Assembly (NCBI GenBank): GCA_013215505.1
Contig: JABSQZ010000001.1
Coordinates: 602,043 to 666,042 of the forward strand
Source: Oceanospirillaceae bacterium
GTDB taxonomy: Bacteria > Pseudomonadota > Gammaproteobacteria > Pseudomonadales > Balneatricaceae
Reading direction: 5' to 3'
Length of the DNA: 64,000 bases
This document shows, piece by piece, positions 3,461 to 62,106 of the stretch (its first letter is position 1; every line of letters begins with the position of its first letter). The position numbers were made by a program, and so were the translations under genes. The notes below the pieces were generated by a model. That model was not told the DNA's origin. It did no database searches and saw nothing but the letters and a program-made list of their open reading frames with translations.

Positions 3461-3506
3461 ACTTCCAACTTCCAACTTCCAACTTCCAACTTACGACTTC
3501 CAACTT
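3461..3506. repeat. Period-7 tandem array 1 (6.5 units)
   Basis: On the plus strand the units read ACTTCCA x4, ACTTACG, ACTTCCA and a partial ACTT. The array runs from the terminator directly into the complement of the TAA stop (3506-3508) of the minus-strand oxidoreductase. On that gene's transcript it forms the start of the 3' untranslated region, with units read as TGGAAGT. Three related arrays occur elsewhere in this window in the same relation to a minus-strand gene. Confidence 0.95.
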
Positions 3507-5542
3507 TATATCTTACTCACATGCACAAAAGTATCATAGTAAGCCGCCCCATCACCTATATCCGTTTTGCTGGTATTGCTAATCAGCGCATTCACCGTCT
3601 GACCGGTGGCACTGCTTGCGCACCAGGCACCCTTCTCACAACAGAGTACACCGACAGCCACAGCATCGGTAATATTGGCACGTAGCTGCACATTACCCAG
3701 ATTGTTAGACACTAGCACCAAGTCTCCATGGCCAATTTCCAACCGCTGTGCATCCTGAGGATTTATGTCCAGTAATTCAGCAGCATTTCTACTGCTACCA
3801 CCAAATGAGGCGTTAATACGTCGATCCGAGGCCGGACTTAGTAATATAAAGGGCGCGGTTTTCTCCACAGCCAGGTAATTTGGCAACCCACTTTTATACT
3901 TTTCCTGAAGCTGCTGCGAATAAAATTCAATCTGACCGCTCGGAGTATTCAGCTGCTCATCAGACAGCCAAGTGCGGCTGACATCTTGCATACTGATGAC
4001 TTGATCTGTCTGAATTTGCGAGGCATTTTGCACGGCATGCAGATCTTTGTGCAGTGTAAATGCCTGGTCAATTAACTGCGCATCTGTATCGGTAAAAGCC
4101 GCATCGCAGAAACCAAACCTTTTCGCCAGGCGCCTAAATATCTCAGTATTAGGCAGCGCCTCTCCCACCGGGGGAATCACCGCCTCTGCTCGTTGCAAAT
4201 AAGCATGACCGTAAGCAGAAAATATCTCCTGATGCTCGAAGTGACTAGCTGCCGGTAAAATCACATCGGCATACAACATACTGTCATTCATCTGCAGATC
4301 ACAGCCGACAATAAATATTTGTTCCTGAGACAACGCCTGGCGCAGTTTATTTTGCTGTGGATGGGTAGCCAGCGGATTGTGATTGTAGATAAACAGCGCA
4401 CCTATTGGACTTTGCATATTACGGTCCAATAAATGATTGGCAACATCCACTATATTAAAGACCCGGCGTGGCTTTGCTCCAGGTAAATCAGCCTTTTGCT
4501 GTAATTCTGCACTGGCTTTGAAAGCAGCCCCGTAATTGCCGAGAATACCATGCCCACACTGCCCAATACTCCCCAACAACACCGGCAAAACTTGAGCCGC
4601 GCGTATTGCCGCTCCACCATTTCTGCTGCGCTCCAGACCCACGCCGATACTTAACGCCAGCCGCTGCGTGGCTCTACAGTAATCGACCAAGCGTCTAAAA
4701 TCATCATTATTTACCCCACAGCGCTGCTGCAGATCAATGTGCAAATAGCTTTTTGCATGTTGCAGGTATTGATCCAACCCTAGCACTGCATACTGGACTT
4801 TATGGGTATCAATGACCGCTTCTGCGACCAGTGTAGCGACTAATTTCAACGCCAGAGCGACATCCGAGCCGGGAGTAACCTGCACAAACAAATCCGCCTG
4901 CCTGGCAATTTGTGTACGCCTGGGATCAATAACGATTAACTTGGCACCTCTTTTGCGCGCGCTGTTAACAACCCGCATCAAGTGCAAGTTTGTGACACTG
5001 ACATTACTGCCCCAAATAATAATTAAATCTGAAAATTCAACCTGTTGCACAGGCATTCCCTGAGCATTACCAAACATAGACTGATAGGCCAAAGACCGAA
5101 CCCCGCCACAGAGCGGCGATCTGTTTAGCTCACTGGCACCTAGACGAGAGAAGAAACGTCGATCCATGGAACCACCTGCCAACTTACCGTGGGGCCCGGC
5201 GTAATTTAGCGGCAATATACTCTGCGCACCCTGCTTATCAATGGCCTGCTGCAAGCCTTGATATACCCGCTCTATGGCATCATCCCAGCTTATTATCCGA
5301 TACTTTCCACTGCCTCTTGGCCCGGTACGCAGCAAGGGCTGCCTAAGACGCAGCTCCCCATGTATAAAGTCCGGGTAGTATTTAGCCACTTTTGTACAGA
5401 CACTGCCGCGAGTAAATGGATTGACTTTTGAGCCGCGCACTTTTATGATTTTATCGTCCTCAACAGTCACTCTTAAACTGCAAGTATCCGGACAATCCAA
5501 AGGGCAAACACTGGCTAGCTCAACTATTGGCTGGTTTTTCAT
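3506..5542 (-). CDS. Molybdopterin-dependent oxidoreductase, DMSO-reductase family
   Basis: This 678-residue protein belongs to the bis-MGD oxidoreductases. The N-terminus carries a [4Fe-4S] motif C13-x3-C17-x3-C21-x27-C49. MGD-binding segments such as IIIWGSNVSVT and LIVIDPRRTQ follow, and the C-terminal molydopterin dinucleotide-binding domain includes LSPASDRRINASFGG. Cys145 in SPLCGG lies where this family often places a molybdenum ligand, but that is inference. There is no Tat signal, so it is probably cytoplasmic. No electron-transfer or chaperone subunit is adjacent, so substrate and partner are unknown. Start ATG at 5542 (MKNQPIVELAS). It could be related to assimilatory or formate-dehydrogenase-like enzymes. 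Confidence 0.88.
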   Translation of the reverse strand: MKNQPIVELASVCPLDCPDTCSLRVTVEDDKIIKVRGSKVNPFTRGSVCTKVAKYYPDFIHGELRLRQPLLRTGPRGSGKYRIISWDDAIERVYQGLQQAIDKQGAQSILPLNYAGPHGKLAGGSMDRRFFSRLGASELNRSPLCGGVRSLAYQSMFGNAQGMPVQQVEFSDLIIIWGSNVSVTNLHLMRVVNSARKRGAKLIVIDPRRTQIARQADLFVQVTPGSDVALALKLVATLVAEAVIDTHKVQYAVLGLDQYLQHAKSYLHIDLQQRCGVNNDDFRRLVDYCRATQRLALSIGVGLERSRNGGAAIRAAQVLPVLLGSIGQCGHGILGNYGAAFKASAELQQKADLPGAKPRRVFNIVDVANHLLDRNMQSPIGALFIYNHNPLATHPQQNKLRQALSQEQIFIVGCDLQMNDSMLYADVILPAASHFEHQEIFSAYGHAYLQRAEAVIPPVGEALPNTEIFRRLAKRFGFCDAAFTDTDAQLIDQAFTLHKDLHAVQNASQIQTDQVISMQDVSRTWLSDEQLNTPSGQIEFYSQQLQEKYKSGLPNYLAVEKTAPFILLSPASDRRINASFGGSSRNAAELLDINPQDAQRLEIGHGDLVLVSNNLGNVQLRANITDAVAVGVLCCEKGAWCASSATGQTVNALISNTSKTDIGDGAAYYDTFVHVSKI

Positions 5543-5747
5543 TACAATCCCTTATATTCAGTAAACTGCGGCCGGTGAAAAGCCACACAAATGTGCTAAA
5601 CACAGAGATTACCGGTAATTGTGGATTATAATAAGACCCATTTATTTTTAAATCACAGACCCACTTGCCAGCTGTGAATACCTATTGCAGATACCCAAAC
5701 CCTCGACCTATCAAGGAGCAGAACTAACAGGATCTTATCTGTAACTA

Positions 5748-6596
5748 TTAGGCAAAGCTTCCCCTCTTTTGATAAACCGCACTGGCCACTAAGTTAAACT
5801 TTTGCTGCTCTAATACTAACTGCTCAGCTTGTCCTACGAACAAATAGCCACCGGCTTTTAACATTGCACCCAACTTCTCAATTAACTTCTGCTGCGAATC
5901 CCTGTTAAAATAAACCATAACATTGCGACAGAAAATAAAATCAAACTGCCCCTTCATTGGCCAGTCACTCATTAAGTTCAGATACTTAAAACAAATCAGT
6001 TGTTGCAGCTCGGGCCGCATCAGCACCTTACCACTGCGATTACCCACCCCTTTCATGAAATACTTATGCACCGATTGACGGGATAACATGCTAATTCGAT
6101 CTATATCATAGACCCCAAACCGGGCCGCCTTCAGGACTGACGCATCCACATCTGTTGCCAAAATTTTTATGTCCAGATCTTTAATGTTTAGCAGCGAATC
6201 AGCCAAAGTCATGACAATTGAATAAGCTTCTTCACCGTTGCCGCAGCCCGCAGACCAACCTCTGATTTGTTGTTGGCGGTTTTCTCTTAACCTGGGAAGC
6301 ATTGTTTCAGCAATAAAATCAAAATGTTGCTGCTGCTGATAAAAGGCCGAGAGGTTAGCCGTCAACACATTTACAAACTGCCTGAGCTCGTTGGGATTAG
6401 CTTCTATGTAATTAAAATAACTGTCATAACTATTTAGCTCAAGTGCGCGCAAACGTCGTACCAGCCTATTGCAGGCCATGTCTTTTTTGTGATCTTCGAG
6501 CAAAATACCCGCGTTCTCGTACAGATCCTTTTTTACTTTTGAAAAATGCGCTTCAGTAAACTCGAATTCATCCTGAAAATTGAAAGCCGACTTCAT
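5748..6596 (-). CDS. CheR-type protein-glutamate O-methyltransferase
   Basis: SAM-dependent methylation of glutamates in chemoreceptors is the family role. The protein has an N-terminal helical CheR_N region (about residues 10-85) and a methyltransferase domain with GWSAGCGNGEEAYSI as the SAM-binding motif, followed by FDFIFCRNVMVYF. I chose ATG at 6594-6596 (MKSAFNFQDEF, 282 residues); a TTG five codons upstream is possible. It stands alone between two promoters' worth of sequence, with no cheB, cheW or receptor gene adjacent, so it may serve an orphan pathway. Family confidence is high; its specific partner is unknown. Confidence 0.9.
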   Translation of the reverse strand: MKSAFNFQDEFEFTEAHFSKVKKDLYENAGILLEDHKKDMACNRLVRRLRALELNSYDSYFNYIEANPNELRQFVNVLTANLSAFYQQQQHFDFIAETMLPRLRENRQQQIRGWSAGCGNGEEAYSIVMTLADSLLNIKDLDIKILATDVDASVLKAARFGVYDIDRISMLSRQSVHKYFMKGVGNRSGKVLMRPELQQLICFKYLNLMSDWPMKGQFDFIFCRNVMVYFNRDSQQKLIEKLGAMLKAGGYLFVGQAEQLVLEQQKFNLVASAVYQKRGSFA

Positions 6597-6908
6597 GTAA
6601 CACCACCCCAAATAAACTTGATAAACACACCTAGCAAACCCGACCCAGACCTTTAGCTGTTAACATAGTCGCTTGTTGAGCGCGCATTGGACATATTTTG
6701 AATATCTCCTAAAATAAAGATAGTAGTAATTCAATCAAACACCAGAGCTACAAAATATATAATATGCATTAACAGCCCTGCACATATTCGTTTAAAGGCG
6801 CTGAAAAAAGCCAGCTTGTCGCAGTAACACTCCTGCCAGAAACCCTATCTAAGCCAAACCAGCACAGGTATAATCGGCTTTTTTCACTTTCGTTTTGGCA
6901 GGATACAC
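6597..6908. other. cheR/gltX divergent intergenic region
   Basis: This 312-bp region has no gene. A TATAAT at 6869-6874 on the plus strand is a plausible -10 for gltX, about 34 bp before its ATG; the matching -35 is poor. GGCAGGA at 6897-6903 is the gltX ribosome binding site. I see no clear promoter for cheR. Confidence 0.45.
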
Positions 6909-8393
6909 ATGACCGTTCGCACCCGTATAGCACCTTCCCCTACCGGCGACCCACACGTTGGCACCGCTTACATCGCTCTTTTCAATTTAGCTTTTGCTAG
7001 GCAGCATGGCGGAAAGTTTATTTTACGCATTGAAGATACCGATCAGTCGCGCAGCACTAGCGAATCAGAACAGACTATTTTAGATTCGCTGCGCTGGTTG
7101 GGATTAGACTGGGATGAAGGTCCGGATGTAGGCGGCGAATATGGGCCTTACCGTCAGAGTGAACGCAGAGATATTTATGCAAAGTACGCCCAGCAGTTAC
7201 TCGATCAAGGGAATGCATTTCGCTGTTATTTAACGGCCGATGAGCTTGATGTTATTCGCAATTCGCGTCGTGAGCAGGGATTGCCTGCCGCTATGCATCA
7301 ATCTGCATTGACACTGAGTGACCAAGAAGTCGCTAAACGCCAGGCAGCCGGTGCACCTTTTGTGGTGCGCATGCAGATTCCCACTGAAGGTAGCTGCGAA
7401 TTCGAAGACATGCTGCGCGGTAAAATTGAGATCGAATGGTCCATGGTGGATGCGCAAATACTGCTTAAATCCGATGGCATGCCCACCTACCACTTGGCTA
7501 ATGTTGTCGATGACCACTTGATGAAAATCACCCATGTATTACGTGGCGAAGAGTGGATCAACTCTGCCCCCAAGCACCAACTACTGTATAAATACTTTAA
7601 CTGGAATATGCCAACCTTGTGCCATATGCCACTACTGCGCAACCCGGACAAATCCAAGCTCTCCAAGCGCAAAAACCCTACCAGCATCTTGTATTATAAA
7701 CGCATGGGTTACCTGCCTGAAGGGCTATTGAATTACCTGGGCCGCATGGGCTGGTCAATGCCGGATGAGCGAGAGAAGTTCAGTCGTGCCGAGATGTTTG
7801 AAAACTTCGACATTCAGCGAGTCTCACTGGGCGGACCTATCTTCGATCAAACCAAACTCAGCTGGTTAAATGGCCTGTGGCTAAGAGAGAACCTGAACAC
7901 GGCCGAGTTTGCTCGCGAATACCAAAAATGGGCCCTGAATCCGCAATATCTGATGCAGATCATCCCGCTTATCCAGCAGCGGGTAGAAACATTTTCTGAT
8001 GTTGCACCACTGGCAAGCTTCTTCTTGTCAGGCATGTTAGACCTAAACGAAGAAGACTTTAAACACAAATCTTTAGAGCTTGCTGAAATTCGAAAGATCT
8101 TGCAATTCACCGTCTGGAGCTTAGATACACAGACAGCCTGGGACAAAGATTCGCTCTACACTCTCCTCAAACAACTGGCGGATACCATGCAGCTGAAGAT
8201 CAGAGACTTGTTGTCGCCATTGTTTATCGCTATCGCCGGCACCAGTCAGAGCGTCTCTATAATGGATTCAATGTCGATTCTCGGCCCGGATATGAGCAGA
8301 GCACGACTCCGCCACGCTTTAAACATCCTCGGCTCCCCATCGAAAAAAGAAGCCAAGCGCTGGGACAAAGAATACAAAGCCCTACAGCCATAG
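6909..8393 (+). CDS. gltX: Glutamate--tRNA ligase
   Basis: Class I aminoacyl-tRNA synthetase charging tRNA-Glu in the cytoplasm. The HIGH-type motif is [11 protein letters not shown] (residues 9-19) and the KMSKS-type loop is KLSKR (250-254). The 494-residue length is normal, and the C-terminal anticodon-binding helical domain is complete ([18 protein letters not shown]). ATG at 6909 follows a good ribosome binding site. A strong terminator follows the stop, so it is a single-gene unit. Discriminating versus non-discriminating charging cannot be decided from the sequence. Confidence 0.97.
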
Positions 8394-8406
8394 AAACTGT
8401 TTGTAC

Positions 8407-8441
8407 AAAGCCCGCTACAAAAGACTGTAGCGGGCTTTTTT
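8407..8441 (+). terminator. Intrinsic terminator of gltX
   Basis: A 13-bp perfect stem (8407-8419 with 8426-8438; core AGCCCGCTACA/TGTAGCGGGCT) with a six-base loop, ending in a T-run to 8441, 14 bp after the gltX stop. Confidence 0.9.
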
Positions 8442-8514
8442 AGACACTATATTCAATCAATCCGAAGATAATTAAGGGGTTGTCTTTTTAATGTCAAAAA
8501 AGCCAACTTTGCTA

Positions 8515-8551
8515 TTGATTTTAATCTCGAATATGGCAGAATACGCGCCTC
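8515..8551 (+). promoter_or_regulatory. Candidate stable-RNA promoter of tRNA-Ala
   Basis: TTGATT (8515-8520), a 16-bp spacer and CAGAAT (8537-8542) are followed by the GC-rich discriminator GCGCCTCC (8544-8551). That combination is typical of growth-rate and stringently controlled tRNA and rRNA promoters. It lies about 25 bp before the mature tRNA 5' end. Sequence inference only. Confidence 0.55.
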
Positions 8552-8572
8552 CTTAGAGATGATTATCCAGAT

Positions 8573-8648
8573 GGGGCCATAGCTCAGCTGGTAGAGCGCA
8601 ACGCTGGCAGCGTTGAGGTCAGGAGTTCGACCCTCCTTGGCTCCACCA
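8573..8648 (+). tRNA. tRNA-Ala (anticodon GGC)
   Basis: This 76-nt cloverleaf folds fully. The acceptor is GGGGCCA with TGGCTCC, including the G3:U70 wobble pair that marks alanine tRNAs. The D arm is GCTC/GAGC, the anticodon stem CAACG/CGTTG with loop CTGGCAG (anticodon GGC at loop positions 3-5), and the T arm AGGAG/CTCCT with TTCGACC. The 3' CCA is encoded. It reads GCC/GCT codons. It stands alone between gltX and a convergent exporter gene. Confidence 0.98.
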
Positions 8649-8699
8649 ATCTTTTCCAATCCAGGCACTTTATACCTCCCCGCAATCGATTTAACTTTT

Positions 8700-8728
8700 T
8701 TAGAGAAAAACTCTAAGAAAATTTTTTC
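8700..8728 (+). terminator. Possible terminator of the tRNA-Ala transcript
   Basis: TTAGAG-AAAAA-CTCTAA (8700-8716) is followed within a few bases by ATTTTTTC. The stem is short and AT-rich, and there is a 4-base gap before the T-run, so this is tentative. Confidence 0.35.
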
Positions 8729-8733
8729 GCATG

Positions 8734-8758
8734 AAAAAAATCCCAGCGTTAACCGGGA
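8734..8758 (-). terminator. Intrinsic terminator overlapping the stop codon of the Bcr/CflA gene
   Basis: On the minus strand TCCCGGT-TAAC-GCTGGGA (8758-8741, with two G-U pairs) is followed by seven T (8740-8734). The TAA stop of the exporter gene (8751-8749) falls in the loop and the base of the stem, so termination and the end of the coding region coincide. Confidence 0.6.
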
Positions 8759-9954
8759 ACTTCTAGATTCCAACTGGAAAATCTTTTCATACTCATCATC
8801 AGCAGCAACGGCACCGCCAACGACAGCAGCACTACCGCAACCGCAATCGGCGCCGACAAATCACTCTGCTGAACCAATACTATGATGACAGAGGCCCCCA
8901 CCATCTGAATAAAGCCCAGTAGCGCGGAAGCCGTTCCCGCCCTATCCGCAAAGCCCGCCAACGCCATACTAGTTGCAGGACCTAATAACAGCGACAAACC
9001 CATGCTCAGAAACATAACCGGCAACATGAAGGCCAGCGCAGCTAGCAGTTTATGGCTAATTACCAACAATTGAAAACCGATCAATAATGTAGCTGCAAAC
9101 ATCATCAAACAGAGCGCCGCAACTACCATTTTCCTGTTGCCGAATCGACTGATCAACAGCGGCGCGACAAAACAACAGATAATACTAGCGCCTGCATTTA
9201 AACCAAACAGCACACTAAAAGTGGTTGCAGACACCCCTAGATGCTGCATCAGCCAGATCGGCGCATAGCTTACATAACTCAAGATTCCCGCCAGTGCAGA
9301 CATGCAACACAGCGCATAGAAGATAAAATACCTGCTGCACAACACCGGTCGGTACTGCTGCCAATTATAGAGCCTGCCAGATTTAGCAACCTCGGCCGAG
9401 GCCATTAATGTTTCGGGCAGAAACCTCGCCACCAAACACAACACCAGCAGTGCATAACTTCCCATAAACACAAAAGTGGAGCGCCAGCCAAAAGACTCGG
9501 CCAGCGCACTGCCAAAAATAGGTGCCAGCGCCGGGATCACACTAAGCACCCCATTCAAATAACTATACACTTTACTGCTGCGCTCATAACTATAAGTATC
9601 GCGCACTATACTAAAAATAATCACCGAAATAGCACAGGCAGCAAAGCCTTGCAGCATCCTGACCAGTTGCATCATCAATATATCAGCAACCATACTGGCA
9701 GCAAAACTTGAGAGCAAGTACAGAGCCAGCCCCAACAATGCAACAGGCCTGCGCCCGTATCTATCAGCGAGAGGACCGACAACAACCTGCCCCAATCCCA
9801 TAGCCAAAAAGAACAGCGAGATAGTTGATTGAATCTGACTATTAGAGGCCTGCAGCTCCCCCGCCATTTGCACCACAGATGCCAGATAGATATCGATAGC
9901 CATAGGACTCAACACCACCATGGTCATCAAAAGAGCTAAAATATAACGTTGCAT
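8749..9954 (-). CDS. Bcr/CflA-type drug-resistance MFS transporter
   Basis: A 12-transmembrane major facilitator exporter (about 401 residues), probably expelling drugs or metabolites by proton antiport. The start MQRYILALLMTMVVLSPMAIDIY and the loop GPLADRYGRRPVALLG are typical of the Bcr/CflA branch (DHA1). I chose ATG at 9952-9954 because it begins this conserved first helix; upstream in-frame codons would add a low-quality leader. No strong ribosome binding site is visible. The gene lies downstream of mlaA on the same strand, with period-7 array 2 between them. Substrate is unknown. Confidence 0.88.
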   Translation of the reverse strand: MQRYILALLMTMVVLSPMAIDIYLASVVQMAGELQASNSQIQSTISLFFLAMGLGQVVVGPLADRYGRRPVALLGLALYLLSSFAASMVADILMMQLVRMLQGFAACAISVIIFSIVRDTYSYERSSKVYSYLNGVLSVIPALAPIFGSALAESFGWRSTFVFMGSYALLVLCLVARFLPETLMASAEVAKSGRLYNWQQYRPVLCSRYFIFYALCCMSALAGILSYVSYAPIWLMQHLGVSATTFSVLFGLNAGASIICCFVAPLLISRFGNRKMVVAALCLMMFAATLLIGFQLLVISHKLLAALAFMLPVMFLSMGLSLLLGPATSMALAGFADRAGTASALLGFIQMVGASVIIVLVQQSDLSAPIAVAVVLLSLAVPLLLMMSMKRFSSWNLEVPG

Positions 9955-10052
9955 AATACTTAATCTAGAAGAGGAAAAAAAAGAAGCACATATCAAAGAT
10001 ATGCACAAAAACAGGCAGCGCTCATACAAACATACAACACCACCTCTCACAA

Positions 10053-10122
10053 ACTTACGACTTACGACTTACGACTTACGACTTACGACTTCCAACTTCC
10101 AACTTCCAACTTCCAACTTCCA
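10053..10122. repeat. Period-7 tandem array 2 (10 units)
   Basis: On the plus strand there are exactly five ACTTACG followed by five ACTTCCA units (70 bp), then a truncated ACTA. The array lies 17 bp beyond the mlaA stop codon (14 bp if the partial unit is counted) and about 98 bp before the exporter's start codon. On the mlaA transcript the order is TGGAAGT x5 then CGTAAGT x5. Both unit types also occur in array 1. Confidence 0.95.
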
Positions 10123-10139
10123 ACTAATCATCATGCTGC

Positions 10140-10826: not shown

Positions 10827-10915
10827 TTAGCTCTCACCTTCACTTACCTACTTCCATTTCAGATATCCTGAATTCTAGCACATGGCAAAACTACTGATGC
10901 AAATTTTTGACAAAA

Positions 10916-19398: not shown

Positions 19399-19517
19399 AC
19401 TCACGACTCTCGACTCTCGACTCTCGATTCTCGACTCTCGACTCTCGACTTCCGACTTCCGACTTCCGACTTCCGACTTCCGACTTGCAACTTGCAACTT
19501 GCAACTTGCAACTTGCG
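19399..19517. repeat. Period-7 tandem array 3 (17 units)
   Basis: Seventeen uninterrupted units on the plus strand: ACTCACG, ACTCTCG x3, ATTCTCG, ACTCTCG x2, ACTTCCG x5, ACTTGCA x4, ACTTGCG (119 bp, exactly 17 x 7). It ends 4 bp before the complement of the ppnN TGA stop. Variants form contiguous blocks, suggesting local expansion of each variant. It is the longest of the four arrays in this window. Confidence 0.96.
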
Positions 19518-19521
19518 ATTG

Positions 19522-20895
19522 TCACTTAACCAACTTATAGCAAGGCACATATTTTTCATGGTCGATTTTCATGCGTTTCTGCGCCACAAACGCACTCAAC
19601 AGTTTATCCAGTTTTTCCATCAATTGGCTGTCACCCGATAATAGAAAAGGCCCATGATCTGCAATCGCTTTTACCGCCGGCGCTTTAACGTTACCTGCAA
19701 CAATACCTGAAAGTGCCCGGCGCAGCTGCGCCGCTAAAATATAATCTTGCTGATTAGCGTGCAAATTCAGTTCGGCCATCGCCTGATGAGTCGGTTCAAA
19801 AGGTATCTGAAATTCCGTCGGGATATGCAGCTGCCAGTTAAAGTGGAAAGATTCGCTCAGATCTTTTCTGTGCTGATACACCGCTTCCATATTCGATTTC
19901 ATCGCCAGGGCAACCGCCTGTGAATCATTGACAATGATCTGGTACTTTTTACTGGCCTGCTCACCGATAGTCGCCTTGATAAACTCATCAACTTGCTCGA
20001 AGTAGGCTTCAGAGCCTTCGGGTCCAGTAAAGATTAAGGGGAAGGGAATATCCTTATTTTTCGGATGCAGTAAAATCCCCAGCATATATAATATTTCTTC
20101 AGCGGTTCCCGCTCCCCCGGGAAAAACGATAATACCGTGCCCCAGACGCACAAAAGCTTCCAGCCTTTTTTCTATATCGGGAAAGATCACCAGCTCGTTA
20201 ACAATCGGGTTAGGTGATTCGGCGGCGATAATACCTGGCTCAGTTAAACCTATATATCTGGCATCTTTTATACGTTGTTTTGCATGGGCAATAGTGGCAC
20301 CTTTCATCGGCCCTTTCATTGCCCCGGGTCCACATCCGGTACAGATATTTAACCCGCGCAGACCCAATTCATAACCTACAAGTTTTGAATAGTCGTACTC
20401 TTTGCGACCGATAGAATGGCCTCCCCAGCACACCACCAAATTCGGTTTGACCTTTGGTTTAATCGCATCCGCATGTCGTAAAATATTAAAGACACTGTTA
20501 GTCAAACTTTCCGTCAGAGGCAGGTCGGAACTTGTTTGATCCACTTGCCCGCCAATATAAAGCAGATCTCTGAGCACCGAAAACAAGTGTTCACGTATGC
20601 CTAAAATAACCTCCCCATCAACAAAGGCATTGGTGGGCGCGTTGATTAATTTTAACATCACACCTTGATGTTTCTGCTCGATTTCAATATCGAAGTCTTT
20701 AAACATATCCAGTACATCACTGGTACTGTCGACTGTGCTACCTGTATTAAGCACTGCCAGTGAGCACTGGCGAAATAAACGATATAAACTATTTGTATTA
20801 GTGCCCTCTTGAAGCTTAGCAACTTCAAACGGAGAGAGGGTATTTAAACTACCTAATGGCTTGGTATCGGCGGAAATAAATTTTTGTATTGTCAT
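19522..20895 (-). CDS. ppnN: PpnN nucleotide 5'-monophosphate nucleosidase (YgdH, LOG family)
   Basis: Cleaves purine and pyrimidine nucleoside monophosphates to base and ribose 5-phosphate; the E. coli enzyme is activated by (p)ppGpp. The LOG-family motif PGGAGTAEE (about 259-267) and the GCGPGAM loop (about 188-194) are present. The flanking DUF4478 N-terminal and DUF3412 C-terminal domains, which distinguish PpnN from plant-type LOG, are also present. I chose the ATG at 20893-20895 (MTIQKFISADT, 457 residues), which matches the E. coli length of 454 and follows GGGAGT; an upstream frame adds 28 unconserved residues. Period-7 array 3 directly follows the stop. Confidence 0.94.
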   Translation of the reverse strand: MTIQKFISADTKPLGSLNTLSPFEVAKLQEGTNTNSLYRLFRQCSLAVLNTGSTVDSTSDVLDMFKDFDIEIEQKHQGVMLKLINAPTNAFVDGEVILGIREHLFSVLRDLLYIGGQVDQTSSDLPLTESLTNSVFNILRHADAIKPKVKPNLVVCWGGHSIGRKEYDYSKLVGYELGLRGLNICTGCGPGAMKGPMKGATIAHAKQRIKDARYIGLTEPGIIAAESPNPIVNELVIFPDIEKRLEAFVRLGHGIIVFPGGAGTAEEILYMLGILLHPKNKDIPFPLIFTGPEGSEAYFEQVDEFIKATIGEQASKKYQIIVNDSQAVALAMKSNMEAVYQHRKDLSESFHFNWQLHIPTEFQIPFEPTHQAMAELNLHANQQDYILAAQLRRALSGIVAGNVKAPAVKAIADHGPFLLSGDSQLMEKLDKLLSAFVAQKRMKIDHEKYVPCYKLVK

Positions 20896-21643
20896 AACTC
20901 TGATACTCCCTGAAAATAATCTTAGGCCAACCATCTTGTCAGCATAAATTGGAAAGAAATGGATCTTTAACGATTCCATTGCTAAGACTATTTTCTACAA
21001 CAGTTTTTGTAACAGCCGCAATATGCAGTAGATTTTGTAAATTTCAATTGCAGCAAAATAGATAAATTATTAATGCATTGAATACTTTAAGCAAAATAGT
21101 TTCATCTACACTCAATATATTAGGTATAGCACAGCCTAGCAAGCGCTATACAGTTGTGGCAGTAATAGCCATACACAGAGCAGCTTCAAACCTGTTTGCG
21201 ACAGACTCATTAGCTGGCTTAAGGAGAAGTTACAAATTAGCGCTATAATGAATGCAGTTATGGAACATGCAGTTGCAACTTTAGTCGGTAATTAACACAT
21301 AGACCTTCCAATTTGCTGCTCTGGTCATATAATGCAGGCCTGTAAGCTATTAATCACAAAAAACATAGTTTTTAAACTCCAATAACAACCAATTATCCTG
21401 CACTTTTACTGTTTACATGAAGCTTGTCAGCATTGTTTTTATGGTAGATGAATCCCAATATATCGGGCTTGCGGAAAACAGCTCTAAGCACTGCAACTAT
21501 TGGCTAACAAGTCTAATACGTCATGCTATAGCAACTTATTTAAGCAACCCCTGGCTAATTCCAGCTTACCCAGCAGACCAGCGAGTGGGTATACAGCATA
21601 AAAAGTGTTTCATTTCAGATGAAACTGAAGAGGTGAGAGAGTG
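20896..21643. other. ppnN/mqo divergent intergenic region
   Basis: This 748-bp region has no gene I can support. TATAAT occurs on the plus strand at 21244-21249 and 21328-21333. The second has a weak -35 (TTCCAA at 21306-21311, 16-bp spacing) and could be the mqo promoter, giving a leader of about 300 nt. A small open frame before mqo (from 21417) overlaps the mqo start and looks spurious. Confidence 0.4.
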
Positions 21644-35199: not shown

Positions 35200-35391
35200 C
35201 TAGCCATCCGCAACGATAGGTTCAGCTTTATGAAAACCTTCCTCTGTGGTCCAGTAATCTTTACCCATTTCTACCTTCACAACGCCTGGAAACCTTTTAT
35301 TAAGATATTCCACCGCATCCTCTAGTGTCTCTATATCGCACAACATCACACCACCGCGTTCGTTATCGGTACTAAAAATAAAACTTTTCAC
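35200..35391 (-). CDS. Hypothetical 63-residue protein with amplified start region
   Basis: The protein starts MKSFIFSTDNERGGVML and continues with an acidic helix (CDIETLEDAVEYLNKRFPG), a basic strand and WTTEEGFHKAEP. It looks like a small soluble alpha/beta domain; I do not recognise the family. The GTG start at 35389-35391 is preceded by AGAAAGG seven bases upstream. The ribosome binding site, start and first 12 codons lie in the last copy of an 83-bp tandem repeat that fills the space up to the MFS gene stop, on the same strand. The ancestral arrangement was probably MFS followed directly by this gene. Confidence 0.6.
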   Translation of the reverse strand: MKSFIFSTDNERGGVMLCDIETLEDAVEYLNKRFPGVVKVEMGKDYWTTEEGFHKAEPIVADG

Positions 35392-35744
35392 AATAAAACC
35401 TTTCTATAATGCTTCTGCATGCACATCACATCGTCTCTGCGTTCGTTATCGGTGCTAAAAATAAAACTTTTCACAATACAACCTTTCTATAATGCTTCTG
35501 CATGCACATCACATCGTCTCTGCGTTCGTTATCGGTACTAAAAATAAAACTTTTCACAATAAAACCTTTCTATAATGCTTCTGCATGCACATCACATCGT
35601 CTCTGCGTTCGTTATCGGTGCTAAAAATAAAACTTTTCACAATACAACCTTTCTATAATGCTTCTGCATGCACATCACATCGTCTCTGCGTTCGTTATCG
35701 GTACTAAAAATAAAACTTTTCACAATAAAACCTTTCTATAATGC
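35356..35744. repeat. 83-bp direct tandem repeat (4 full copies + partial fifth) copying a gene start
   Basis: Copies begin at 35356, 35439, 35522, 35605 and 35688 (the last ends at 35744). They are identical except at two positions that alternate: copies 1, 3 and 5 read GGTACT...AATAAAACC, copies 2 and 4 read GGTGCT...AATACAACC, giving a 166-bp higher-order repeat. Each copy carries, on the minus strand, AGAAAGG, a GTG start and 12 codons of the 63-residue gene. GTG starts are at 35723, 35640, 35557, 35474 and 35391 (the real gene). Each of the first four opens a 28-codon frame ending in a TGA that overlaps the next GTG. Confidence 0.97.
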
Positions 35745-55074: not shown

Positions 55075-55084
55075 ATAAACTCTC

Positions 55085-55897: not shown

Positions 55898-56104
55898 AAA
55901 TAACCTGAATGCTGTAGCCCTGTCATTATCTGTATCTTACTAGCAAAAATTAAATGGGCTGAAACTGGAGCGGTGATTATTGATGTTTAGCCGCCATACA
56001 CTGTGGCAGCTAATTGGAGAAATAGTGTAAAGGCTGACAGCTATTGAAAACCAACAGCTGTCATCTGGGAGCAGCCGCCCTACAAACAGGACAGGACTGG
56101 AGGT

Positions 56105-56503
56105 CTAGGCATAAATGGCATCGTCAAAAGGATCGATAGGTGCCTCTAACATTTGGTCATCAGTATGATACAAAACCCGGCCTTCAAATCTTAAGCCCTT
56201 GGCGGCGAACCAGCGCTCGGCGCTTTCACGGCCCTCCTCTGCATTACTTTTTTGCATACTGGCAGTGATCACCCGATAAAAATAAAGACCAAACAGACCT
56301 GAGGCGACTCCCATAAAATACGCGGAACCCATGGCAAAAACTACCGCTACAACTGCTGCTATCCACACTCGGCTGGCCTTGGATGTTTTAAACTGCTCGT
56401 TGTATTGCTGGAATAAATCGTGAAACTTGATATAGCGACGAAAATTCTGTTGTAAATCAAACTTGTCATCATTAGAAATTGTACGAGCCATCATTTTATC
56501 CAT
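56105..56503 (-). CDS. Hypothetical membrane protein (132 residues)
   Basis: A charged N-terminus (about 1-44, DLQQNFRRYIKFHDLFQQYNEQ) is followed by a hydrophobic stretch of 30 or more residues (about 46-79, possibly two helices) and a soluble C-terminal part (AAKGLRFEGRVLYHTDD). No family is recognised. The start is ATG at 56501-56503 (MDKMMARTIS); a later Met (residue 4 or 5) is possible and no ribosome binding site is obvious. It stands alone. Confidence 0.55.
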   Translation of the reverse strand: MDKMMARTISNDDKFDLQQNFRRYIKFHDLFQQYNEQFKTSKASRVWIAAVVAVVFAMGSAYFMGVASGLFGLYFYRVITASMQKSNAEEGRESAERWFAAKGLRFEGRVLYHTDDQMLEAPIDPFDDAIYA

Positions 56504-56754
56504 GTTAAATTTATCAATAACCGCAGCACTCTCTGCTGCAATTTGTAGCTTAGAATGTCACTTCGCCAGCGTATATTTCCCGGTAGCTAAAGTTGCAAAC
56601 TCTATAGATTGACCTTAGCCTAAGATACTAGTTCTATCAATCTTCTTAAAAAATATTTCCGCTGTGATTGGATATAATCTGCGCCTGCTAAGTTGCCGGT
56701 TGGCGAACATAACAAATCGCTAAGCATAGCGTCACAGCGGGGTTGCCGATTTAA

Positions 56755-59382
56755 TTATGCTAAACTTTTACTCACCACTTCAAAGACATCCGCAGATAAC
56801 TCGCCACTGTCCATAATACGCAGTAACTGCTCACGCATTAACTGTTGTCGCACTTGGGTATAGCGACTCCATTTTGAAAGCGGCCCAATTAAGCGCGATG
56901 CCAACTGCGGGTTGGATTTATCTAAAGCGATAATCTGATCTGCCAGAAACTGGTAGCCACTGCCATCTTCGGCGTGGAAATTAACCTGGTTCTGCATGCA
57001 AAAAGCAGCGACGACAGAGCGAACTTTGTTGGGATTGACAAAATCGAAGGCTGGATGTTGCATTAGCTCCTTGACATTTTCAAGTGCTCCCGCTTTAGGG
57101 TCGCTCGCTTGAACCGCAAACCACTGATTCACTACCAAAGTATTTTCAGACCACTTGTCGTAGAACTGCGCTAACAGTTTAGCGCCGGCATCGACAAAGT
57201 TTGAATGCGCAACTTGCACCAGAGCTGCCATGCTGTCGGTCATATTGTCGGCCTCCTGGTACTGCTTCAATGCCAATTCCAGGTAGCACTCTTTCTCCAG
57301 CGCCATCAAATAACTTAAGCTTAGGTTCTGCAGTTTTCTTTTGGCAATGCCTTCGGCGCTTGGCTGGTAGGCCTCCGCGGCCAGGCGGGCACCTTGATAC
57401 GCTGCTAAAAACTCTATTTCCAGTGCCGCAGCTATACGCTTGCGAACAAACTCTCTGGCACGGTGAATGTTGCCGACTTCAACTTCATCACAGAGCTCTG
57501 CCAGATACAGCTCGGAGGGCAGAGTCAGCACTTGTGCCATCATTGCTTTATCCAGCGACCCATCAGCTAACACAGCGCGGTAGGCGTCTATCAGGCAATT
57601 ATCCAGGCGTAATTCAGCACCTTGCTGCAAACTTTTTACCAGCTCCTGAATAATATCAACACCTAGCTTTTGTGCCGCCTCCCAGCGGTTAAAGCCATCA
57701 CTGTCGTGACTGATCAAGAACACTAACTGTTGACGCGCATATTGATAGTCTAATTTCACCGGAGCGCTAAAACCCCGCAATAGTGAAGGCACAGGTTTAA
57801 CCGGAATGTTGTCAAAACTGAAAGTCTGTTGCGCTTTAGTCACTTCTACCAGTGCGGTAGTAGTGCCGGCCAAGTCAATATCATTGCCGCTTTCATCCAG
57901 TAGCCCCAGGCAAAATGGCAGGTGGAATGGCAGTTTCTCACTCTGACCAGGCGTTGCTGGACAGCTCTGCACGATAGTGATGTCATAGCGCTGACGCTGC
58001 TCATCATAGTTATCGGTAATAGTTAAATGCGGCGTTCCCGCCTGGTTGTACCAGTTTTTAAATTGGCTTAAGTCTCGCCCAGAAGCGTCTTGCATGGCAC
58101 TGATGAAATCATCGGTAGTCACAGCCTGGCCATCGTGGCGCTGAAAATATAAATCACTGCCCGCTCGAAATTTTTCCGCTCCCAGCAAGGTATGTACCAT
58201 GCCTACGACTTCGGCGCCTTTTTCATACACTGTACGAGTATAGAAGTTCGATATTTCGATAAAAGAAGCCGGGCGGATTGAATGCGCCATTGGCCCCGCA
58301 TCTTCAGAGAACTGACCGGTGCGTAAGGCCTGCACACTTTCAATACGTTTAACCGTTCTCGAGTTCATGTCCGAGGAAAATTCAGCATCGCGATATACCG
58401 TAAATCCTTCTTTCAAACTCAGCTGGAACCAATCTCGACAGGTAACCCGGTTGCCGGACCAGTTATGAAAATATTCATGCGCCACTATGGCTTCGACTCT
58501 CTGAAAAGTCGCGTCAGTGGTCGTTTGTGGATGGGCTAAGACACATGATGTATTAAAGATGTTTAAACCTTTATTCTCCATAGCGCCCATGTTGAAGAAA
58601 TCCACAGCGACAATGTTAAATAGATCAAGATCGTATTCGCGACCAAAAACCTCTTCATCCCAGCGCATAGATTTCTTCAGTGAAACCATTGCATAATCTA
58701 GCTTATCTAAGTCTTTTTCGTCGGCGTAGACTTTCAAAGTGATTTTGCGGTCCGACATAGTCACAAAAGTATCTTCAATGTGCGCTAAATCCCCGGCAAC
58801 TAAAGCAAACAAATAAGCAGGTTTTGGAAAAGGGTCTTCCCAGGTCGCCCAGTGACGGCCATCTTCAAAGTCGCCTTTTGCCACTTGATTACCATTAGAG
58901 AGCAGTACCGGGTACTCATTCTTATCGGCCACTAAAGTGGTTTCGAACACTGACATCACGTCAGGTCTGTCCATATAAAAAGTAATGCGTCTGAAGCCTT
59001 CCGCTTCACACTGGGTACAAAACATTCCACCGGACCGGTACAGCCCTTCAAGAGCAGTATTCTTATCCGGATGAATGATAGTGATCACTTCCAATTGCAG
59101 CTTATCGTTGAGACCGTTCAAGGTTAAACCTGTGTCATCTCGCTGATAATCCGCTGCAGCGAGTTCCACGCCATCAATAGCAATTTTTTGTAATTCTAAC
59201 TCGCTGTCACCCTGCAAAAATAGATCGGCGCTTTGATCCCTGGCATCTGGGTTACGTCTCAAGGTTAAACGCGCAGTCACTTGGGTGAACTCAGTCATCA
59301 ATTCAAAATGCAGTTGCGTCTGATCAATCAAAAATGCGGGTACTTGGTAATCTTTTAAATATATAACTTTAGGTTGAGACAT
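56755..59382 (-). CDS. pepN: Aminopeptidase N (PepN, M1 family)
   Basis: Zinc aminopeptidase that removes N-terminal residues from peptides during cytoplasmic protein turnover. GAMEN is at 266-270 and the zinc site is His302-Glu303-x2-His306 (HEYFH) with Glu325 (KEGF). The 875 residues match E. coli PepN (870). I chose the ATG at 59380-59382 (MSQPKVIYLKDYQVP), preceded by AGAGG; upstream in-frame residues are not part of the family. The gene is a single unit. Confidence 0.97.
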   Translation of the reverse strand: MSQPKVIYLKDYQVPAFLIDQTQLHFELMTEFTQVTARLTLRRNPDARDQSADLFLQGDSELELQKIAIDGVELAAADYQRDDTGLTLNGLNDKLQLEVITIIHPDKNTALEGLYRSGGMFCTQCEAEGFRRITFYMDRPDVMSVFETTLVADKNEYPVLLSNGNQVAKGDFEDGRHWATWEDPFPKPAYLFALVAGDLAHIEDTFVTMSDRKITLKVYADEKDLDKLDYAMVSLKKSMRWDEEVFGREYDLDLFNIVAVDFFNMGAMENKGLNIFNTSCVLAHPQTTTDATFQRVEAIVAHEYFHNWSGNRVTCRDWFQLSLKEGFTVYRDAEFSSDMNSRTVKRIESVQALRTGQFSEDAGPMAHSIRPASFIEISNFYTRTVYEKGAEVVGMVHTLLGAEKFRAGSDLYFQRHDGQAVTTDDFISAMQDASGRDLSQFKNWYNQAGTPHLTITDNYDEQRQRYDITIVQSCPATPGQSEKLPFHLPFCLGLLDESGNDIDLAGTTTALVEVTKAQQTFSFDNIPVKPVPSLLRGFSAPVKLDYQYARQQLVFLISHDSDGFNRWEAAQKLGVDIIQELVKSLQQGAELRLDNCLIDAYRAVLADGSLDKAMMAQVLTLPSELYLAELCDEVEVGNIHRAREFVRKRIAAALEIEFLAAYQGARLAAEAYQPSAEGIAKRKLQNLSLSYLMALEKECYLELALKQYQEADNMTDSMAALVQVAHSNFVDAGAKLLAQFYDKWSENTLVVNQWFAVQASDPKAGALENVKELMQHPAFDFVNPNKVRSVVAAFCMQNQVNFHAEDGSGYQFLADQIIALDKSNPQLASRLIGPLSKWSRYTQVRQQLMREQLLRIMDSGELSADVFEVVSKSLA

Positions 59383-59719
59383 GAGTTGAACCTCTAAACA
59401 TAAAACTGTTTTTATAAGGGAAAATGTGAATAAATCGAGTACCTTCTCTGGGAACGCTTTATCTTCCAGAGTATATGTGTCGGCATTTTCCTCAGCCACA
59501 TTATAGAGTCTAACCATCAATATAATCACTACTGTTTAATAAAAAAGCACAGTTTTCTTACTAAAACCTGAATATAGTCAAAATCTTCACTGAAAAATAT
59601 CGCAGGCAAATAGCGTTACCGAGACAACTTAAAAAGTTGCCTCTATGGGCGGGTACAACAGGCGAGAAGTTTGTGCAAGAGACCGCCCAAAGGCGGTCTA
59701 AAAGGAGGTAGCTAAGAAA
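59383..59719. other. pepN / DUF2797 intergenic region
   Basis: 337 bp without a gene, on the minus strand between the DUF2797 stop and the pepN start. It contains an 8-bp perfect hairpin, AGACCGCC-CAAA-GGCGGTCT (59680-59699), about 20 bp after the DUF2797 stop. That is probably a terminator lacking a T-run. No clear pepN promoter can be named. Confidence 0.5.
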
Positions 59720-60553
59720 TTAAGCGCAAGTGCCTATTTCAATGGCGTAAGAAGTGTATTTGCGTAAATTGATCACACCGGTATCTAACATTAAATACTG
59801 GCCTTTTATTCCCTGTAAAACGCCGCTGATTTTTGGCGTTTTATCCAGGTTATGTGAGCTGATTTTGCTCGGGTATTCAATCACTGGATAACTCAAACTT
59901 TGTACTTGCACACCCGTGATTGGCACAATACTCTGCAAGCCATGTTCCGCGGTCAGCTGTGCCAGTTCTGACTTGCAAGTTTCCATCAATTGGTCACGCA
60001 TTGCCGGTAAATCAATGGCTGTGATCTCACCTTTGAGCATCTTTCGCCAATTGGTTTTATCGCTGATATGCTCGGAGAAAATTTTCTCCACAAGACCAGA
60101 CTGCTGTCGGGTCTTCACTCTGAAGATAGGCAGCGCTTCCACGGCACCTTGATCAATCCAGCGCGTCGGTACCTGGGTCGCTCTGGTGATCCCCACCTTG
60201 ACACCTGAAGAGTTCGCCAGATAGACGATATGTTCATTGAAACACACCGTTTTCCCCCACTCTTCATCTCTGCAGGTACCTAAATGGAAGTGGCATCTAT
60301 CCGGGCTCATCATACATAGGTCACATTGCGGCAACTTTTTAAAGCAGGGAAAACAGTAACCTTGGCTGAAGCTTTTTTTGGTTAAACGGCCACAGTGACT
60401 ACAGTGAATTTCACCCAGGTTTTCCAGATATATTTCCTGGCCTATAAGCTCATTCATCAACAGCGGTTGATCGTCTAACTCTAAATAATATTTGATCGAA
60501 TCGCTTAATTCGGTACGCATTTTTTGCATAGTACCTGTTCTAAGTATCGGCAT
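59720..60553 (-). CDS. DUF2797 protein with zinc-ribbon Cys and a possible GIY-YIG-like core
   Basis: Function unknown. 277 residues. The N-terminal Cys pairs (C51/C54, C67/C70, C77/C80, C87, C94; CSHCGR, YCFPCF, CDLC) suggest zinc ribbons. The middle has IVYLANSSGVKVGITRATQVPTRWIDQG followed by an acidic Glu; this resembles GIY-YIG/T5orf172 nucleases (KVGIT, Arg, Glu). That is inference. Start ATG at 60553; ATG at 60529 has a better AGGT site. The next gene upstream is YeaC, about 155 bp away on the same strand. Confidence 0.75.
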   Translation of the reverse strand: MPILRTGTMQKMRTELSDSIKYYLELDDQPLLMNELIGQEIYLENLGEIHCSHCGRLTKKSFSQGYCFPCFKKLPQCDLCMMSPDRCHFHLGTCRDEEWGKTVCFNEHIVYLANSSGVKVGITRATQVPTRWIDQGAVEALPIFRVKTRQQSGLVEKIFSEHISDKTNWRKMLKGEITAIDLPAMRDQLMETCKSELAQLTAEHGLQSIVPITGVQVQSLSYPVIEYPSKISSHNLDKTPKISGVLQGIKGQYLMLDTGVINLRKYTSYAIEIGTCA

Positions 60554-60709
60554 AGGTTCTTGTCACACCTGTATTTATACTCTCAATTATTGAGATATTA
60601 TTGTTGTCGGAACATGCCGATAAGTCCGCTGAAAAATTCAGCAGCTATTGGCATGTAGCCAAGCTAGCGGCTCAAGCTAACTGTACTACTGTATTATTAT
60701 TGACCTGCA

Positions 60710-60964
60710 TTAATGGAATTTAATCACCTGCTCTTGCAGTGGGTCGACTCCTTTCATCGTGCCGTCTTCACGGCTGCGGTCGATGAAACCAATTCTATCC
60801 TCTGCAGGCAGGTTCTGATCATAGTGGATCACTGCACGCAGACAAATTTGCAGCTGATCAGCAGACATTTTTTTGCCATCCGGCCACTTTCCCAACTCAA
60901 TCGCTGTCTTGATTGCCTGATGCATTTTCGGGGTCATCCGCGAGATTAGCTCTTCGTAATTCAT
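60710..60964 (-). CDS. YeaC family protein (DUF1315)
   Basis: A conserved small (84-residue) soluble protein of unknown function: ELISRMTPKMHQAIKTAIEL, GKWPDGKKMSADQLQICLRAVIHYD and RIGFIDRS are family blocks. ATG at 60964 has no strong ribosome binding site. It lies upstream of the DUF2797 gene on the same strand; the two families often occur together, so a linked role is possible. Confidence 0.85.
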   Translation of the reverse strand: MNYEELISRMTPKMHQAIKTAIELGKWPDGKKMSADQLQICLRAVIHYDQNLPAEDRIGFIDRSREDGTMKGVDPLQEQVIKFH

Positions 60965-61132
60965 AGTTGGGACTCAATATTTTTTCTTAAGATATTCATA
61001 AACAACCCTTAATAGGTTATCTACATAAATTCAAAATGTTTAGATGCGCAACAGGATGTGAGCAAACAGATGCATAAACCCGCACTTTACTCAGTGCAGT
61101 GGATTTTTCGCAGCCGCACTTGCTTGGTTTTT

Positions 61133-62008
61133 TTAGTTAGCATTACGATGCGACTTTGCTTTGTTAATTGCAGCGAGAACCAGTGCAGCTACTAGTCCTG
61201 CAACTAACCCGCTTAAGTGTGCGGTATTGGCAATGTCTCCAAGACCGAGTTGGGTTAACAATCCAGAATAGCCCAGAGCTAAAAAGACCAGCATAAAGCC
61301 CATTAACGCATTGGAAACTACCGACAGCTTTTTATCAGCCAGCTTATCCCACAGCCAGGCGTAGGAGATCAAAGCGTATACCACACCAGAAAGGCCGCCA
61401 AAATAGGGTCCTGAGACTAAGTATTGGACTATATTTGAGCTTATAGCGGAAAATATTACGATATAAAGCAGCACCAAACTCTTCTGTTGCTGTTCAATCA
61501 CAGTGCCAATTACCCAAATCCATAGCGCGTTAAAGATAAGATGAACAATACTAAAATGCATAAATATAGGAGTAACGAAGCGCCAAATTTGCAGCGATTC
61601 CAGCGACTGATTCAGAGAGTTATAGCCGCCTACATAATCAAAATCTGTGATACTCAGTAGCTTTCGCAGTTCTAAATTTTGCCCAAAATCTATGCCCAAA
61701 GTCAGCAGCAGACTTGCCACTAACAACAACATAACCAGCGGAATTTTTTTAAAATCAACCGCTCTGCTGTTATTATCAGCCGCGTTGGCGCTAAGACCCG
61801 TTACTTCTTGAACCAGTTCAGCATTAAATTCCCCACCTTGCTGCCAGTGCTGATACAACTGGGTCACCAACTGCGCGTTATGTTCATTTTCCACTATCAG
61901 AACCTGGCTCTGCTCAATAACCACCCGGTGGAGAATTTTCATCTTCCATAACTGCTTAGTGAAACTACTTAGGTCAACATCTAACGGGGCACTGAATACT
62001 ACAATCAT
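61133..62008 (-). CDS. glpG: GlpG rhomboid intramembrane serine protease
   Basis: Cleaves transmembrane substrates inside the inner membrane. An N-terminal cytoplasmic domain (about 1-85) precedes six helices. The dyad is Ser207 (GGLSGVVYAL) and His264 (TAHLSGLVAGL); the oxyanion residues His156 and Asn160 are in HFSIVHLIFN. E. coli GlpG has Ser201/His254 and His150/Asn154, so the layout is the same. 291 residues. No glpD/glpR neighbours, unlike enterics. Its ATG at 62006-62008 is separated from period-7 array 4 by only seven bases. Confidence 0.94.
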   Translation of the reverse strand: MIVVFSAPLDVDLSSFTKQLWKMKILHRVVIEQSQVLIVENEHNAQLVTQLYQHWQQGGEFNAELVQEVTGLSANAADNNSRAVDFKKIPLVMLLLVASLLLTLGIDFGQNLELRKLLSITDFDYVGGYNSLNQSLESLQIWRFVTPIFMHFSIVHLIFNALWIWVIGTVIEQQQKSLVLLYIVIFSAISSNIVQYLVSGPYFGGLSGVVYALISYAWLWDKLADKKLSVVSNALMGFMLVFLALGYSGLLTQLGLGDIANTAHLSGLVAGLVAALVLAAINKAKSHRNAN

Positions 62009-62015
62009 TTTATAA

Positions 62016-62106
62016 ACTCACTACTCACTACTTACTACTTACGACTGACGACTGACGACTTACGCCTTACGCCTTACGCCTTACGCCTTACGCCTAAAAC
62101 CTTACG
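62016..62106. repeat. Period-7 tandem array 4 (13 units)
   Basis: On the plus strand: ACTCACT x2, ACTTACT, ACTTACG, ACTGACG x2, ACTTACG, CCTTACG x4, CCTAAAA, CCTTACG (91 bp, exactly 13 x 7). The next unit in phase (ACTCAAA) contains the complement of the stop codon of the metallophosphatase gene. The array therefore fills almost the whole spacer between that gene's stop and the glpG start. Units on the transcript read CGTAAGG, CGTCAGT and similar. Confidence 0.95.

Follow-up and report, generated by a model that had tools for sequence, protein, structure and literature searches.

We analysed a window of 64,000 nucleotides (nt) from an Oceanospirillaceae bacterium (assembly GCA_013215505.1, contig JABSQZ010000001.1, positions 602,043 to 666,042), in which four tandem arrays of related heptamers adjoin the 3' ends of four genes. 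The arrays were located by Tandem Repeats Finder (TRF), by inspection of the sequence and by our own period-based detector, all of which place them where the original prediction had put them. They also share the orientation claimed for them, with ACT on the plus strand beside the stop of a minus-strand open reading frame (ORF). Pfam agrees with the names proposed for the four genes (oxidoreductase, mlaA, ppnN and metallophosphatase).

3461-3506 (own detector 3460-3506), minus strand: array 1, directly adjoining the TAA of the molybdopterin oxidoreductase gene, with AGT-H-G-N-R units on the transcript
3506-5542, minus strand: ORF of the molybdopterin oxidoreductase gene, Pfam PF00384, with array 1 at its end
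3429-3459 (edges by eye), minus strand: intrinsic terminator directly past array 1, a predicted hairpin 4 nt beyond the array
10053-10125, minus strand: array 2, on the transcript AGTTGGA five times and then AGTCGTA five times, 14 bp past the TAG of mlaA
10140-10826, minus strand: ORF of mlaA, Pfam PF04333
19399-19517 (own detector 19399-19516), minus strand: array 3, blocks of AGTTGCA, AGTCGGA and AGTCGAG, 5 bp past the TGA of ppnN
19522-20979, minus strand: ORF of ppnN, Pfam PF11892, PF14793 and PF03641
62016-62106 (own detector 62016-62095), minus strand: array 4, blocks of AGGCGTA, AGTCGTC and AGTAGTG
62109-63134, minus strand: ORF of a calcineurin-like phosphoesterase gene, Pfam PF00149, with array 4 at its end

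The stops next to arrays 1 to 4 lie at 3506, 10140, 19522 and 62109, leaving gaps of -1, 14, 5 and 13 bp with the array edges of our own detector; array 4, about 13 bp past the TGA of the metallophosphoesterase gene, reaches to 7 bp before the start of the next gene. Paired ACTNNCR heptamers occur 34 times in the window where 0.33 are expected, and the highest count in 100 shuffles was 2. A terminator is predicted 4-8 nt beyond the array in three of the four cases, and a search of the window against Rfam returned tRNA only.

Three successive ACTNNCR units match 803 times (469 + 334) in the whole genome, as against 6 times (3 + 3) for the reversed pattern, and a crude extrapolation from 143 matches in 1.2 Mb gives about 213 arrays. 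Among the tandem repeats of the first 800 kb of contig C1 (C1:1-800000), period 7 leads with 34 clusters at a TRF score of at least 50, followed by period 21 with 4 clusters. For a census of placement we sampled 1.2 of the 5.73 Mb (C1:1-800000, C2:1-200000 and C3:1-200000, as 60 stretches of 20 kb), calling genes with our own codon-usage gene finder and detecting arrays by period alone, which needs about three units. Gene edges are approximate, starts above all, both here and at the cross-phylum loci considered below, where the longest ORFs were used, and the p-values are not adjusted for the trial of several definitions of an array and several edge limits. The sample holds 48 period-7 arrays without N runs, 38 of them with an ACT core (33 on C1, none on C2 and 5 on C3). 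The spread is uneven, C2:1-200000 having no match to three ACTNNCR units as compared with 128 in the 800 kb of C1.

Of the 38 ACT arrays, 22 lie within 15 bp of a stop, whereas 2000 random intergenic placements averaged 1.4 and never exceeded 7. One array adjoins two stops, and the resulting 23 placements comprise 22 in sense (AGT-H-G-N-R on the mRNA) and one antisense (19:1 on C1 and 3:0 on C3; 18:1 overall when the four window arrays are taken out). The array of this sole antisense placement, at C1:402243, also adjoins another stop in sense. The antisense share grows with distance, sense to antisense being 23:8 within 50 bp and 26:13 within 100 bp, limits at which the far stops of converging gene pairs are included. 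If the strand reading AGT is taken as the direction of the array, 28 of the 38 have a stop on their 5' side (median distance 5 bp) and the other 10 have a start there (median 235 bp); none of the 38 adjoins a start by that end within 20 bp, and none was classed as lying inside a gene. The non-random placement at gene 3' ends that had been predicted thus extends across the 1.2 Mb examined, with arrays neither equally frequent upstream of genes nor in both orientations, although 15 of the 38 sit elsewhere.

The 38 arrays contain 301 units, of which 48 are distinct and AGTTGGA (100), AGTCGGA (49) and AGTCGTA (30) the most frequent. Their consensus is better expressed as AGT-H-G-N-R on the transcript. 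When neighbouring units were compared in the 39 of 48 arrays with AGT in their consensus (249 adjacent pairs, the other 9 arrays being excluded), the differences at A, G, T, H, G, N and R numbered 2, 6, 10, 26, 9, 18 and 16 (p=1.8e-5; with looser array detection, in 36 of 46 arrays, p=1.2e-7). Most of the variation between neighbours thus falls on positions 4, 6 and 7, the A, G, T and second G being held. Requiring AGT to set the phase biases the test slightly toward AGT, but position 5, which is outside that criterion in the main test, is held as well. Three families of other lineages vary unevenly too: in Xanthomonas the differences along GGRRNTN are 2, 1, 2, 1, 19, 2 and 22 (43 of 44 arrays), with a p-value that overstates the case because the arrays are alleles of only three loci, and in Nostoc they are 20, 0, 14, 17, 5, 42 and 5 along GGGGANT (46 of 120 arrays) and 1, 1, 0, 1, 9, 0 and 16 along TCAGAAT (10 arrays). 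Neutral slippage should vary all seven positions alike, so that plain slippage does not predict this pattern, and the constraint on positions is the best evidence that the letters matter beyond mere repetition. A held core is as compatible with a copying process dependent on the core letters as with a reader of the array.

Other traits of neutral microsatellites are present, namely runs of identical units (187 identical adjacent pairs versus 135 in shuffles) and a copy number that varies between species. Degenerate units are not clearly commoner on either side of the array; in the 14 arrays far from an ORF the counts are 6 for the 5' and 7 for the 3' side, and in the 23 stop-adjoining arrays 12 and 17, respectively. 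Post hoc, the AGTYG unit appears to match the consensus for RNA polymerase pausing, which the Nostoc families do not.

Within the genus, matches to three ACTNNCR units number 803 in the present genome (G000) and 133, 83, 226, 3, 52 and 144 in its congeners G001 to G006. Beyond the genus only 2 of 18 family members have any (5 and 2), and the member with 5 has 28 matches to the reversed control. Array 1 recurs at the orthologous gene of G003, where the order of stop, array and terminator is retained, and array 2 recurs in G006 with its block order unchanged and fewer units. At the G006 ortholog of array 4 there are five successive units that differ from one another, each beginning with AGT, while the G003 contig ends there; at the ppnN ortholog, the site of array 3, the G006 contig ends inside an array. 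Outside the window, the array at C1:416910 recurs in G003, and at C1:273586 both G003 and G006 have arrays of other units, orthology being less sure in this case (72% identity, contig ends). Several congener contigs in G003 and G006 (L452, L450 and L180) end inside heptamer arrays, which means that draft assemblies break there and undercount arrays.

The same gene ends carry differing units across 17-23 species of Xanthomonas as well as in sister species of our organism. At locus 1 (23 of 41 genomes matching), 12 of the 23 have a tandem array past the stop, 5 a decayed stretch that looks heptamer-like by eye and 6 none. The units there include GGGATTG, GGGAATC, GGGAAGT, GGAAGTC, GGGATTT and others; CGGAAGT shares arrays with GGGAATC and is thus one state of the family described by Rehm et al. 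(2015). At locus 2 (19 of 31 genomes matching, one weak match being left out), the array begins 0-3 nt past the TGA in 18 of 18 aligned orthologs. Locus 3 is a converging gene pair, both of whose genes carry a separate array in their own direction; among the 17 strong matches used (weak paralogous ones were dropped), an array past the first stop is found in 7 by the detector and is heptamer-like by eye in all 17, weakly in one, and before the opposite stop the detector finds 13 of 17 and the eye 16, the end of one lying outside the stretch examined. By eye, arrays at two of the loci (L380-L397 and L404-L420) commonly have a tail resembling TAAGAGCG or CAAAAGCG behind them, in inverted form at the other side of locus 3.

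In our genome the stop TAG is commoner at array genes (11 of 22, as compared with 192 of 852; p=0.008), and so are ORF ends with AGTHG (7 of 22, as compared with 89 of 852; p=0.007), an excess that might suggest an array creeping into the ORF. Such creeping was rejected, since the flanks are alike in the alleles of Xanthomonas locus 2 and in one clade of locus 1. By eye, both array-less orthologs shown for array 2 (G002 and G005) have shorter spacers, whereas at the site of array 4 the spacers without an array are short in G002 and G005 and long in G001 and G004. Given the like flanks in Xanthomonas and the mixed spacers in our own genus, origin by insertion is likely, though not proven.

Insertion of a larger dispersed mobile element, such as a miniature inverted-repeat transposable element (MITE) or a repetitive extragenic palindrome (REP), was also considered and rejected, as the flanks of arrays share nothing beyond the heptamers; the exceptions are the spacer TTTTGATTGTT, one close pair of arrays and a few matches of 13-14 bases. 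Spread by viruses was rejected as well, four ACTTCCG units matching in 5 viral stretches versus 13 for the reversed control; plasmids gave no match, in a search whose low-complexity filter discards queries of this kind. The original prediction had offered a mobile repeat family and a functional mRNA end element as alternatives; the absence of shared flanks and the viral deficit weaken the former, while the held core and the re-used gene ends strengthen the latter, whose function itself is putative. Four inverted array pairs on C1 (at 350585, 391599, 432441 and 434399) surround a shared spacer, TTTTGA(T/C)TGTT, always followed by ACTTAC. A different tandem repeat lies in the window at 35356-35744, between two minus-strand genes, with 4.7 copies of an 83-bp unit that are 97% alike.

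Prevalence is low and patchy in our phylum, three ACTTCCR units being present in 3 of 398 genomes, our own included. A scan of named genomes for four ACTTCCG units yielded at least 108 stretches, among them Xanthomonas, Nostoc, Bacteroidetes, Verrucomicrobia, Chloroflexi and Gammaproteobacteria. These 108 loci hold 148 period-7 arrays with 39 placements within 30 bp of a stop: AAGTCGG is in sense in 24 and antisense in 2, the other 13 consist of other heptamers, and overall G exceeds C in 32, C exceeds G in 5 and the two are equal in 2. The placement rule thus applies to this heptamer in other phyla as well. Within 60 bp upstream of starts no strand preference was found at the same loci (C over G in 8, G over C in 7 and equal in 3).

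Nostoc served as a test with other units, using 40 stretches around G-rich heptamers and 30 loci each for TCAGAAT and AGTCATT, all selected by heptamer matches. Among the matches listed, 17 G-rich arrays lie within 15 bp of a stop in sense and one antisense. At 20 bp, the 5' end of the G-rich strand adjoins 18 stops and 7 starts in 54 G-rich arrays, and the other end a single stop. The AT-rich TCAGAAT adjoins a stop in sense in 9 of 17 distinct arrays and no other edge within 20 bp, whereas in 21 distinct AGTCATT arrays one end adjoins 3 stops and 8 starts and the other end one stop. By eye, the start-side AGTCATT arrays read as their complement AATGACT in the gene, with the start codon often within the last unit; at L360, L379, L352 and others the array itself appears to supply the start codon, the protein begins with Met-Thr and no ribosome site lies between. 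A model of Rho gave no match above the cut-off in two Nostoc genomes (best E 1.2e-5 and 2.1e-4). In our own genome, arrays with few or no GG likewise adjoin a stop in sense in 6 of 10 cases and antisense in none. Since the placement is kept without a recognisable Rho, with few or no GG and in an AT-rich heptamer, neither Rho nor G-quadruplexes can be its general cause. Three genomes of our genus also encode a second Rho-like protein (G000:C7:64364-65248, G004:C7:26492-27331 and G006:C13:4084-4923, in frames of 317-339 amino acids), which aligns with the Rho model solely beyond roughly position 116-132, scoring at least 350 bits, and probably lacks the N-terminal RNA-binding part.

By their description, the short tandemly repeated repetitive (STRR) sequences of Calothrix and Nostoc are tandem heptamers like our arrays. 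STRR heptanucleotide repeats are mentioned in excerpts of the work of Rehm et al. (2015; PMC4692102), which report GGGNATC and GGGGA(C/T)T heptamers in Xanthomonas and Nostoc that are intergenic, on the sense strand and up to 50 bp past stops, often recurring at the same genes of related strains while differing in length and sequence, and with no known role; in a published comparison, two Xanthomonas strains have 83% of the repeats in common, place being conserved while length and sequence vary. The same placement in Xanthomonas is thus a precedent outside the cyanobacteria that the original prediction invoked. Our arrays resemble the Rehm repeats as tandem, intergenic 7-nt units past stops on the sense strand (22:1 within 15 bp), but differ in that their commonest units, AGTTGGA, AGTCGGA and AGTCGTA, lack GGG, in that the held letters are AGT-H-G rather than GGRR-N-T and in that four units are not preferred (4 of 38 arrays have four, with a detector that needs about three). 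The occurrence near starts on the non-coding strand is seen in the G-rich arrays of Nostoc (7 of 54) but in none of our 38 within 20 bp. TAACTGA direct repeats of Beggiatoaceae, cyanobacteria and Bacteroidetes (MacGregor, 2015; PMC4679880, excerpts) are likewise intergenic, patchily distributed and fixed in orientation to a gene edge, but their unit differs and they lie mostly toward start codons. The parS site of pSM19035 (PMC9499535, excerpts) is an uninterrupted series of 7-10 units of 7 bp whose core is fixed and whose end letters are free; at least 4 contiguous units are required for activity, and dimers of a ribbon-helix-helix protein occupy the series side by side, one per unit. The likeness of parS to our arrays is confined to the 7-bp pitch and to the pattern of core plus free letters, for it lies in plasmid gene promoters, mixes both unit orientations and works in DNA partition. 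The placement of G-rich heptamers past stops (PMC4692102) and the orientation rule of TAACTGA (PMC4679880) are thus already published. The position constraint is new, as are the re-use of gene ends with other units and the placement without a recognisable Rho, with few or no GG and with an AT-rich heptamer; in the open-licence PMC papers searched, 14-base repeats of three of our units occur on neither strand, and excerpts of these papers gave neither a per-position constraint nor one edge rule spanning several heptamer families, AT-rich ones included.

We favour, tentatively and at somewhat less than even confidence, the reading that expandable arrays of a 7-nt recognition unit mark mRNA 3' ends and are kept by a putative factor that reads their core. 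Tandem copies of the unit (AGT-H-G-N-R here, GGRRNTN in Xanthomonas) would mark the 3' ends of genes and, starting directly past the stop codon, would presumably be transcribed with them. The several copies would form a multivalent site, of which the putative factor would read the fixed core and disregard the free letters, most likely on the mRNA, which would affect how the message is protected, degraded or localised. The free letters and the copy number would turn over fast, presumably through slippage, with no change in place, orientation or core. For this reading speak the placement of 22 of 38 arrays as against 1.4 expected, the core constraint, the re-used gene ends, the own-sense arrays in converging and inverted pairs and, by analogy, a contiguous 7-bp array that is read unit by unit by a protein, as parS is (PMC9499535, excerpts). 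Several points weigh against it, beside the few loci behind the Xanthomonas test. The placement rule leaves unexplained the 15 arrays that are not close behind any stop, the congener G004 is almost free of arrays with its 3 matches, the ppnN ortholog has none in G001, G002, G004 and G005, and the gene ends at 3506, 10140 and 62109 are array-less in the orthologs found among these same four genomes. In Nostoc the position test is not significant for AGTCATT (p=0.12, 3 arrays), and both AGTCATT (8 of 21) and G-rich arrays (7 of 54) also adjoin starts, where the complement is in sense; a role at the level of mRNA leaves these unexplained, and for AGTCATT they count against a purely mRNA-level role. 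Place, orientation, core constraint and unit turnover at fixed gene ends are observed, and we infer from them a factor reading the array, an RNA rather than a DNA target and an effect on the message.

A simple repeat that expands by itself, without host function, is the most serious rival and nearly as likely as the reading we favour. Slippage together with a copying process that requires the core would give the constraint, and harm done elsewhere would confine the arrays to gene 3' ends; the patchy and explosive spread (803 matches as compared with 3 in G004, and 3 of 398 genomes in the phylum), the runs of identical units and the gain or loss of arrays within the genus all fit such propagation, but the one-sided orientation does not follow from it alone, the array of Xanthomonas locus 2 is kept in 18 of 18 orthologs and no carrier sequence is common to the arrays. 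Reading at the level of DNA, by a cooperative binding protein that might sit as one dimer per 7 bp, as at parS, with a polarity away from the reading frame, seems quite unlikely: in Nostoc the same array end does adjoin stops and starts (18 and 7 versus 1 for the other end in G-rich arrays, 3 and 8 versus 1 in AGTCATT), and excerpts of PMC4692102 describe G-rich repeats as close to the 5' neighbouring ORF irrespective of its orientation, but in our own genome none of the 38 arrays adjoins a start by that end within 20 bp.

The remaining alternatives concern properties of the repeat as nucleic acid. The commonest of our units are purine-rich in sense and GGGNATC oligonucleotides are reported to form quadruplexes, so that a G-quadruplex or purine-rich RNA (R-loop) effect, as proposed for GGGNATC, may add something in G-rich families; as a general cause it is contradicted by our low-GG arrays and by TCAGAAT in Nostoc, and we regard it as very improbable. 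Still less probable is an unstructured spacer that would hold the terminator hairpin off the ribosome at the stop codon. Three of the four window arrays and the retained order at array 1 in G003 agree with a spacer, as do gene-proximal terminators being repressed in Escherichia coli (PMC4824070, excerpts), but a predicted terminator follows 4 of 23 stop-adjoining arrays within 150 bp, as against 38 of 300 genes sampled at up to 200 bp, so that a spacer does not serve as the general explanation, and it accounts for neither orientation nor core. The least probable of all are Rho utilisation (rut) sites on the antisense strand, which would stop antisense transcripts entering the gene; the ACTTCC strand is indeed C-rich and almost unstructured by folding, but Nostoc keeps a 17:1 sense placement without a recognisable Rho, and Rho was discarded as a general cause.

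Bacterial heptameric repeats have been reported repeatedly, with no role assigned to them. Although we hold it to be unlikely, gene borders in several phyla may be marked by lineage-specific 7-nt words (AGTHGNR, GGRRNTN, GGGGANT, TCAGAAT and AGTCATT), with the same end nearly always touching the reading frame and the core held by a dedicated reader; each lineage would then rewrite the word and keep place and direction. The position constraint, the re-used gene ends and the like placement in Nostoc and in low-GG units yield a testable claim, namely that something recognises the 7-nt unit at gene ends, or that a copying process needs it there.

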